Below are positions 60,653 to 62,873 of a DNA stretch of 64,000 nucleotides, piece after piece (the first letter of the stretch is position 1; each line of letters begins with the position of its first letter). A program made the position numbers and the translations under genes. The notes beneath the pieces were generated by a model. The model ran no database searches. It was not told the origin of the DNA and saw only the letters and a list, made by a program, of their open reading frames with translations. Origin of the DNA: Brachionus koreanus (taxonomy: Eukaryota; Rotifera; Eurotatoria; Ploima; Brachionidae); assembly GCA_016987375.1 (NCBI GenBank), contig PJRA01000313.1:2852942-2916941 (forward strand). The letters are read 5' to 3'.

Positions 60653-61640
60653 TTAGATTTTTAACGAGTTTAACGAATGTAATTGATAGAAGTCAAAAAT
60701 AGCTGTTGCTATATGTTTGGCGCTCAATTCAATATATTTATCAGTCCTCATCCATAAAGGAAGTTCAATTTGTATTGTATTCAGTCTTTTAGAGATGTCA
60801 TAAAAAGATCCATGACGTTCAGTAATAAAACCACCACTGTAATAGCTTCCTTCTTTTGGAGATTTACAGCCTGGCGATGGAACAACTTTAATTGTACTTT
60901 TGTTTTCTATAAGCGAGCCTAAAGAGACATTTTCTCCCCGAATAATTTCTTCAAGACTTAGAAAGCTTTTGGAATACATTGAATTAATTGAAGTACAAAG
61001 CGAATTGGAAAGTTTATCATTTTCTAAGTCACTTTTTTTTAACAAATAGCCTAATTCAACCCATTGTTCTTCGTGTGAGTTACCATGAATGTCCAATATT
61101 AAGCCTTGATCAAAATTATTCGAAAAAATAAAATTTTTCCTAAAATACAAGTCAATCATTGAATGATAATCGTGATAAGCAGTAAATCCATCATGATTTT
61201 TGTTATGGCAGCAATTTTCTAAATCTCTATTTGGATCCATTTTTATTCTTGAAAATCAGACTCAAAATATTGGTTTAATGAAATTTTTTTAAAAAAATTA
61301 TTTACCTGTGCAAATTATTATAGAGCATAAAAGGTATCAATTTTACTCCATATTTTTTTGAGAACAAAATCTCAAGATCATTCCTAATAAATTTGGTAAA
61401 TTTTCGTGTATTTTTGTCATTCTTCAAATTTCCATTCAAATCATTTTCTCTGTTAGGAATTTCTACAGGACGCAAAGACCCATCATGTGGTACACTAAAC
61501 AATATATTTAAATTTCCAATTTCCAATTCGGTATAATTTTTATAACCATACACGACATTTGCATGTGAGAGGTCATTTGAGAAGCTAGTCAACATCAAAT
61601 ATCTAGCTCTATTAATATACGTTTTCCAAAATCGAGTCAA
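60653..61640 (-). CDS. N-formylglutamate amidohydrolase-like protein, 2 exons, about 294 aa
   Basis: Exons on the minus strand: 61640-61306 and 61247-60653. The frame is open to 61640, where a TGTCAAG acceptor-like site stands; the first ATG is at 61595, giving 294 aa. Either an upstream exon was missed or the AG is a trans-splice site. Three motifs fit the zinc-dependent FGase family: FSVPHDGSLRP near the start of the domain, LDIHGNSHEEQWVELGYLL in the middle and GGFITERHGS near the end, which supply His/Asp residues placed like the metal and substrate ligands of bacterial FGases. In bacteria the enzyme splits N-formyl-L-glutamate in histidine breakdown. The animal substrate is unknown to me. 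The ExxHG part and the length suit this family, but I infer activity only. Confidence 0.72.
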
Positions 61641-62404
61641 CTTGACAATTTTATTTTATGAGGTTTATAATAATAGATTTATATTTGAAATTATATATTT
61701 TAAATTATGAAAAAATTCATAAGATTTAGTTTTGCATAATTATTGAAGCTTTTTTTTTAATTTAGGCAAAATAGGCAGATAAATTTTTTATTAAAATGGT
61801 GAATTTTTATGATTAAAGTAATTGTTTTATCACCAAAGAAATTTGTAAAATTAAAATTGATTAAAATAAAAGTTAAATATCATCAAAAAATAAGTGCGTT
61901 GTTTAGGTGTAAAATATGATGAAATTAGAAATTGCTTAAATAAAAGCGTGATTTTTAGTTTATTTTACTATACTTTAAAATCAAAAAGGAAGTAACTGCT
62001 TCCATATTGAATAAATTTTAAGTAGTTTTTAAATTTTGACTTTTTTTAAAGCGTAAAATTATGACTATTTTTCTGACTTAAGGTAAAACAAAAATAAATA
62101 AAAGCTAGTATAAAATACGATCAAATTTAATCTTTTATTTTAATTAGCAAAAAAAGAAAAAATTTACAAGTTAAATCAGATTATTATTGAAAATTTTCGG
62201 TTTTCAGTTGACTGAAAAAGAATAAACTTTATAATGTTTTTATGAATTTTGTGAATATTTAACCAACTTGAAGCTATCTTTTAAACTTATAAATAAATAA
62301 ATTAAAATTTCTAAACACTTGTTTGATTTATTTATATTGAATTTATAATTTATTTTTTTTATAATTATAATTTTTTTTGGATAGAATAAAATTATTGAAT
62401 AGAA
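61641..62404. promoter_or_regulatory. Divergent intergenic region upstream of the H3-tail-repeat gene
   Basis: 764 bp of AT-rich DNA between two genes transcribed apart. It must hold the start region of both. No open frame or clear motif was found; the immediate upstream of ATG 62405 is almost pure A/T. Confidence 0.4.
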
Positions 62405-62873
62405 ATGACTGATCAAGTTTTGCCTAAATCACCAGAATACTCTACTTCAGCTGAGTCTTCTCCAAGCTATTCAATTGCATATGAAGAATGTGACGATTCC
62501 AGTTTTAATTTTTGTTTAAACACACAAACTAAACAAACAGCACGCAAGAGTACAAATAAAATGCTAACAAAGCTGATAGAAATGAGAGAAGACGAATCGA
62601 TTAATTACAAGATTAGATCAAAAGTAAAACAAACAGCCAGAAAGCAAACATCACCTTATTTTTGTCCTAAAATAAAAAATAAAATGAAACATCAAATTAT
62701 TACAGGTAATTTTACCTATTTTTTCTCTATTTAAATGATAATTTTCTTATGTTTACATTTATTAAGAAATAGATGAATTCTATGCAAATAAAAACAATAA
62801 ACAAATACTTACTAAGCAAACAGCAAGGAAAAAAAGTGTACAAAATCTTTTGGCATCTTTTCCTAAAATATAG
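62405..62873 (+). CDS. Small protein with three histone H3 tail-like repeats, 2 exons, 133 aa
   Basis: Exons 62405-62705 and 62773-62873, joined by a 67-nt GT-AG intron; the join ACA G|AT gives Asp101 and both exons stay in one frame to a TAG. The N-terminal 40 residues are Ser/Tyr/Glu-rich. Then come TKQTARKST (42-50), VKQTARKQT (74-82) and TKQTARKKS (113-121). Histone H3 residues 3-11 are TKQTARKST, so repeat 1 is an exact nine-residue match and all three keep KQTARK, which spans H3 K4 to K9. The spacers (about 23 and 30 residues) are Lys-rich and unrelated to H3, and no histone fold follows, so this is not a histone. An AATAAA lies at 62965. I know no family for it. Possible roles are binding or competing for H3K9/K4 methyltransferases and readers, which is inference. 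Confidence 0.8.

Follow-up and report, generated by a model that had tools for sequence, protein, structure and literature searches.

The 64,000-nucleotide stretch of Brachionus koreanus DNA analysed here (the window; G+C content 25.7%) harbours close to its end a predicted two-exon gene whose product repeats the H3-like peptide KQTARK three times, which raises the question of whether this peptide is kept as a mimic of the H3 tail and, if so, for which binding partner.

Gene model and motif copies

In a preliminary description of this DNA the exons were placed at 62405-62705 and 62773-62873, yielding 133 residues followed by a stop codon, and translation of the joined exons bore out that three KQTARK copies are encoded. 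The first two reside at residues 43-48 and 75-80 as described, whereas the third was located to residues 115-120, the earlier assignment (114-119) being off by one; the codons listed for the three copies were found to be correct. Copy 1 is embedded in TKQTARKST (residues 42-50), which is indeed identical to H3 residues 3-11 and matches six of the seven H3-type genes of the genome at these positions, the seventh (L005) possessing Q instead of T3. This seventh locus (C25:306666-310007) is a divergent H3-type gene starting with MARQKQTARKSTAPGTSQ, which may be an H3 variant, centromeric or otherwise. The features of the window gene are as follows:

62405..62705, + strand: exon 1, from the start codon to a phase-1 splice donor, with an acidic Ser-rich N terminus and motif copies 1 and 2; the donor position is matched in relatives
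62411..62425, + strand: DQVLP, residues 3-7, with the N-terminal signature Q-x-L-P; Q4, L6 and P7 are invariant in 11 aligned sequences
62531..62548, + strand: KQTARK copy 1, residues 43-48, within TKQTARKST
62627..62644, + strand: KQTARK copy 2, residues 75-80
62651..62662, + strand: SPYF, residues 83-86, resembling the MLH1-binding motif of FAN1; lost in more distant relatives
62706..62766, + strand: intron with the acceptor favoured by the orthologs; alternative acceptor AG at 62771-62772
62767..62873, + strand: exon 2 including the stop codon (62773-62873 under the acceptor of the preliminary description)
62814..62831, + strand: KQTARK copy 3, residues 115-120 (133-residue model) or 117-122 (135-residue model); degenerate in B. 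calyciflorus P0006

Exon 1 is closed by a GT donor at 62706, and comparison with the relatives described below supports the intron at the level of predicted sequence. The predicted proteins P0003 and P0006 are without the intron and both possess T-E-I-D-E at the junction, while the donor was apparently read through as 'TG...' in P0002, P0004, P0005 and P0010, the last of which apparently reads through the entire intron into I-E-I-D-E. Since T-E-I-D-E of P0003 and P0006 fits the upstream AG at 62765-62766, the acceptor is placed six bases upstream of the one initially assumed, and it is more likely that exon 2 comprises 62767-62873 and that the predicted protein has 135 rather than 133 residues.

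The protein thus encoded is small and fast-evolving and probably disordered. Its first 40 residues are acidic (pI 4.05) and the remainder is basic (pI 10.3), and AlphaFold2 applied to exon 1 returned a mean pLDDT of 59.9 with one short helix at residues 52-61, so that this region looks disordered in the model and its motifs look exposed. Pfam at E<=1 returned five matches for the window protein, all below cut-off, and no histone match at this threshold for either the window protein or P0003, a histone fold being absent after the motif. A search of solved structures with the whole protein revealed two chains at E 1.7, which is not meaningful.

Occurrence of the motif within the genome

The 83.26-Mb assembly (92 contigs) was scanned with an 18-base degenerate pattern for KQTARK, which occurs 17 times as compared to two occurrences of the backward-read control. 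These 17 matches are distributed over H3-type genes (seven), the window gene (three), its syntenic copy on contig C27 (three) and sites elsewhere (four). The shorter 15-base pattern for QTARK was found 45 times versus 16 times for the control, and among the genome matches listed only the window gene, the C27 copy and true H3 genes forming a divergent pair ca. 3 kb apart on C31 possess clustered matches. In a database of 5.8 billion proteins, one would by rough estimate expect 0.3 proteins to hold two copies by chance, and 1e-6 to hold three, within 250 residues; the calculation takes residues as independent (an assumption violated by DNA repeats), with assumed residue frequencies and proteins of 200 residues on average. 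Within the window gene, the three copies differ from each other by 3-4 bases over the 18-base core and by 21-26 over the 36 flanking bases, hence the copies do not represent a fresh DNA repeat, in agreement with the preliminary description.

Apart from these clustered matches, two adjacent open reading frames on C1 (L034:3906-7197; C1:2570905-2574196), probably parts of one gene, in which a PWWP and, below cut-off, a Psq helix-turn-helix domain were matched, carry one KQTARK (KRKSNFKQTARKRSSKS) together with a nearby KKQNARKSS and may represent a single-site H3K9 mimic.

A small protein family and what it conserves

Searching with the single sequence identified two proteins at E<=10, while a profile built from four sequences returned eight proteins and a profile built from eight returned 20; both profile searches scored only those candidates sharing most words with the query (7,984 and 7,981, respectively), so relatives may be missed. 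The relatives of the window protein comprise those from Brachionus plicatilis (P0003) and B. calyciflorus (P0006), the only named significant ones, and eight further proteins. The N-terminal signature Q-x-L-P is present in ten of the 20 profile matches (P0002-P0008, P0010, P0012 and P0015), each of which carries two or three QTARK copies, and it locates to the first 16 residues in the window protein, the C27 copy and all ten relatives, the chance of this upon shuffling being 0.001-0.004 for each of the six sequences tested. Family proteins are 105-202 residues long and were taken to have at least two internal QTARK copies, a count subject to ascertainment via the shared words; the window protein has three. 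The most distant members, P0012 and P0015, gave profile E-values of 0.017 and 0.42, which are not significant by profile alone, and their membership rests on the N-terminal signature, supplemented in the case of P0012 by a profile alignment that mostly covers the motifs.

The other ten profile matches are of mixed character. P0018 and P0013 have the appearance of short tandem repeats, P0016, P0017 and P0021 are basidiomycete proteins, and P0011, P0014, P0019 and P0020 possess one or two QTARK copies without the signature; P0014 carries two copies of RTKQTARKST and P0011 one KQTARKST next to degenerate copies, neither of which matched Pfam at E<=0.1. P0009, assigned to the Pfam histone family by precomputed annotation, represents an H3 variant with repeated ARKST units in its N-terminal tail, of which five were counted. 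A viral origin of the gene was considered and rejected, as none of the 25 pattern-matching stretches in viral_contigs encodes a relative according to tblastn.

The expectation that orthologs would keep the motif while their spacers diverge was borne out by both relatives whose comparison stems from the single whole-sequence search: towards B. plicatilis P0003, which provides the cleanest figure, identity amounts to 18 of 18 motif residues versus 53 of 107 others (p=1.3e-5), and towards P0002 to 12 of 12 versus 53 of 89 (p=0.003). Upon alignment of exon 1 from 11 sequences (for P0002, P0004 and P0005 the sequences cover exon 1 only) all ten QTARK columns are invariant as compared to five of the 90 other columns (M1, Q4, L6, P7 and P84), whereby the invariance of distant members is in part due to ascertainment, the profile drawing its candidates by words that include the motif. 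Altogether 31 TARK copies were counted in the 11 members, 27 of them with Q and four without. Among the 27 full copies the K4 position is occupied by K in 23, R in two and I in two, the position of H3-S10 is Ser in nine and another residue in 18, and T11 is kept as Thr in 22; the nine-residue H3 match of copy 1 recurs in P0002, P0003, P0004 and P0005. Judged from these predicted sequences, the invariant core is QTARK and not KQTARK, and what the family is shown to conserve above all is the presence of two to three complete QTARK copies, with TARK copies numbering up to four. The copy number itself is less strict than the three docking sites initially proposed: three holds true for the window protein, but B. 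calyciflorus has two full copies and a degenerate third (ETSRK), P0007 and P0008 have three full copies and one without Q, and P0012 has two full copies and two without Q.

Within B. koreanus, a second copy of the gene resides, together with the neighbouring open reading frames, in a syntenic inverted segment on C27. A segment of ca. 25 kb is doubled in the assembly (C2:2891158-2916941 and C27:1044437-1070555, in inverted order), representing either the other haplotype or a duplication; a PKA regulatory subunit located ca. 25 kb away shows 99% identity between the two segments. Due to a one-base insertion the C27 protein stops after KKSVQNL (128 residues), with all three motifs intact. Between both copies the motif codons differ by no nonsynonymous and one synonymous change, and the remainder by 19 and seven, respectively. 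Computed on this pair alone, dN/dS is 0.55 for the whole gene, 1.61 for residues 1-40 and 0.20 for residues 41-100 outside the motifs. Three of four neighbouring open reading frames range from 0.05 to 0.20, while the short one at 61302-61652 reaches 0.86 with two synonymous changes, which counts against the reading favoured below. Motif identity between the two copies (18 of 18 versus 91 of 108 elsewhere) is not significant (Fisher p=0.06), and comparison of the motifs with random blocks gave 0.093, a value which is suggestive but likewise not significant (17 amino-acid differences).

Candidate binding partners and known histone mimics

The reading favoured here, to which we give about an even chance, is that the gene product would be a disordered multivalent mimic of the H3K9 tail whose methylated form clusters HP1-type chromodomains or titrates them. 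In this process the K9-equivalent lysine of each copy would initially become methylated by the H3K9-type methyltransferases of the genome, and each methylated copy would then occupy the groove of such a chromodomain. As the copies are ca. 30-40 residues apart, with no recognised domain, one molecule could link the two chromodomains within an HP1 dimer, or link several dimers to each other, by which HP1 would be clustered or titrated off chromatin. In its preferred form the protein would be a soluble HP1 ligand that tunes silencing and hence, in logic, the K9 counterpart of the PRC2 decoy EZHIP. A candidate reader is encoded in the genome, where L037 was identified as a complete HP1 (chromo 82 bits, chromoshadow 109 bits) with HP1/CBX proteins as closest solved relatives, and two further chromoshadow loci are present. 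The tandem-Tudor reader UHRF1 gave no match in the genome, the control genomes being likewise silent, so that the result does not speak for its absence.

Phosphorylation of H3-S10 serves as the switch by which HP1 is ejected from H3 in mitosis. As the equivalent residue is not Ser in 18 of the 27 full copies, such a switch could not release HP1 from those, should HP1 bind them.

The conserved residues are consistent with an HP1-type partner. According to the part of the MPP8 structural report drawn on here, the MPP8 chromodomain holds the H3 main chain from Q5 to R8, and hydrogen-bonds Q5 and S10, with Q5-T6 being offered as discriminator of K9 from K27 (PMC3192050). No copy is N-terminal and Q5-T6-A7-R8-K9 is invariant, in agreement with the early preference for K9-type chromodomains over readers that need a free N terminus. 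The targeting of both H3K9 and H3K4 proteins suggested at the outset fits the sequences on its K9 side and is weaker on its K4 side, which is disfavoured together with free-N-terminus readers because of the internal position of the copies and the variation at K4. The conservation of T11 may indicate a footprint longer than that of a chromodomain, which counts against a simple chromodomain reading.

The protein may instead act on the writer, either a SETDB1- or G9a-like methyltransferase, or on a K9 demethylase, which it would occupy as a sponge substrate or inhibit; methylation itself would then be the output. We regard this possibility as real yet doubtful. ARK-centred sequences are described as the substrate signature of G9a/GLP in the excerpts at hand (PMC6172828; PMC10611923), the genome encodes a SETDB1-like protein, L040, in which MBD and Pre-SET pass their cut-offs while the Tudor matches do not, along with a SET protein (L042) whose Pre-SET match is sub-threshold, and EZHIP provides the precedent of a fast-evolving histone mimic inhibiting a writer (PMC12713659, in part). 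However, the G9a-type search motif as given in PMC10611923 comprises four residues around R-K, and the strict retention of Q5 and T6 goes beyond its needs, which would favour K9-type chromodomains over a writer alone; furthermore, no inhibitory K-to-M-like residue locates to these sites, whereby the counted TARK copies keep the lysine by definition.

Convergence on another short motif unrelated to H3 readers, such as a basic signal for nuclear import or the target site of a basophilic kinase (R-K-x-T), would explain that the copies are basic and that T11 is kept in 22 of 27 full copies with the preceding position free, but not that Q5, T6 and A7 vary no more than R8 and K9 in the alignment, where all ten motif columns are invariant, with only four of 31 copies being without Q. 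Fixation of Q-T-A is not expected of a basic signal, and the H3 match of copy 1 spans nine residues in the window protein as well as in P0002, P0003, P0004 and P0005, hence this explanation is considered unlikely. Still far less probable is a function as mismatch-repair adaptor via SPYF following copy 2: the SPYF motif of FAN1 binds MLH1 with Y and F being critical (PMC8424649, as excerpted), and the sequence is identical in the window protein, the C27 copy, P0002 and P0003, with PYF in P0004, but one or both aromatics are lost in P0005-P0008, P0010, P0012 and P0015 (SPYL, APYV, TPYP, SPPL, SPPF and others), for which reason it was dropped as main reading. That the copies are captured H3-gene fragments, as the protein-level identity of copy 1 to H3 residues 3-11 would allow, or that the open reading frame is spurious, is hardly credible, given that comparison with the seven H3-type genes revealed 20-28 differences over the 36 flanking bases and 3-6 over the 18 core bases, which leaves an origin by capture unsupported, and that orthologs with a matching intron position exist.

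Like the H3K9-like mimics known from ATF7IP (K16), LIG1 (K126), WIZ, CDYL, G9a/EHMT2 and ERCC6, the chromodomain ligand proposed here presents internal ARK-type K9 surroundings, its three KQTARK copies being ARK-containing H3 matches within a non-histone protein. The six proteins named, which belong to the G9a/GLP substrates and chromodomain ligands, all have other known functions. Their sites are described by a short ARK/RK pattern, whereas in the rotifer proteins two to three longer QTARK copies make up most of the conservation. For ATF7IP, both methylation and reading by the MPP8 chromodomain are documented in the excerpt of PMC6172828. Multiplicity within one protein is by itself not new, as four H3K9-like sites (K170, K297, K448 and K1054, the last printed under 'ERRC') are given for ERCC6 in the section of PMC10611923 used here. 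EZHIP, a PRC2 inhibitor of placental mammals with an H3K27M-like peptide, is likewise lineage-restricted and, although the protein is under diversifying selection, carries a conserved histone-tail mimic (PMC12713659, excerpt), but it presents K27M with a methionine where the rotifer proteins present K9 surroundings in several copies with the lysine kept, and the likeness drawn here is one of logic. PMC7192584, as far as its excerpted text goes, moreover cites a case in which an HP1-type protein is the target of an H3 mimic, namely the auto-inhibition of Swi6/HP1; that mimic sits inside HP1 itself, while the rotifer mimic is a separate multi-copy protein.

Among the literature matches listed, none was seen to describe a repeated KQTARK/H3K9 mimic, a dedicated small mimic family or the window gene; the string KQTARK occurs in one of them, a paper on SIRT6 (PMC12591191). 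In the literature consulted, cellular histone mimicry is a matter of sites in larger proteins with other jobs (ATF7IP, LIG1 and WIZ; several sites in ERCC6) or of viral tricks, and within those matches the small dedicated multi-copy family is what is new here. If the proposed reading holds true, the family would provide heterochromatin readers with a competitor or cross-linker that arose by natural evolution. H3K9me3 has been measured in Brachionus manjavacas, with anti-H3K9me antibodies used on dot blots (PMC12571253, in the part available). The predicted mass of the protein is 15.66 kDa as compared to 15.30 kDa for H3 of the same genome, and such antibodies in Brachionus might also detect the protein, provided that it is methylated and abundant.

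Proteins of similar build were found in basidiomycetes, i.e., P0016 (Peniophora), P0017 (Armillaria) and P0021 (Daedalea), which like those of the rotifers carry two to four internal QTARK copies in 180-205 residues and gave no Pfam match at E<=0.1. In their flanks the resemblance to the H3 tail extends further (up to RTKQTARKSTGG), and because they are without Q-x-LP and reach profile E-values of only 1.2-7.0, no homology with the rotifer family is claimed. From sequence they appear unrelated to it, and such mimics may have arisen repeatedly; the broader idea that dedicated multivalent H3K9-tail mimics arose more than once, in rotifers and basidiomycetes, as free ligands competing with chromatin for HP1, is put forward tentatively and considered somewhat improbable. 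In detail, P0016, P0017 and P0021 carry four, three and two QTARK copies, respectively, P0021 with two additional ARKSTG copies, and multivalent mimicry of the H3 tail may thus have emerged independently in these proteins.
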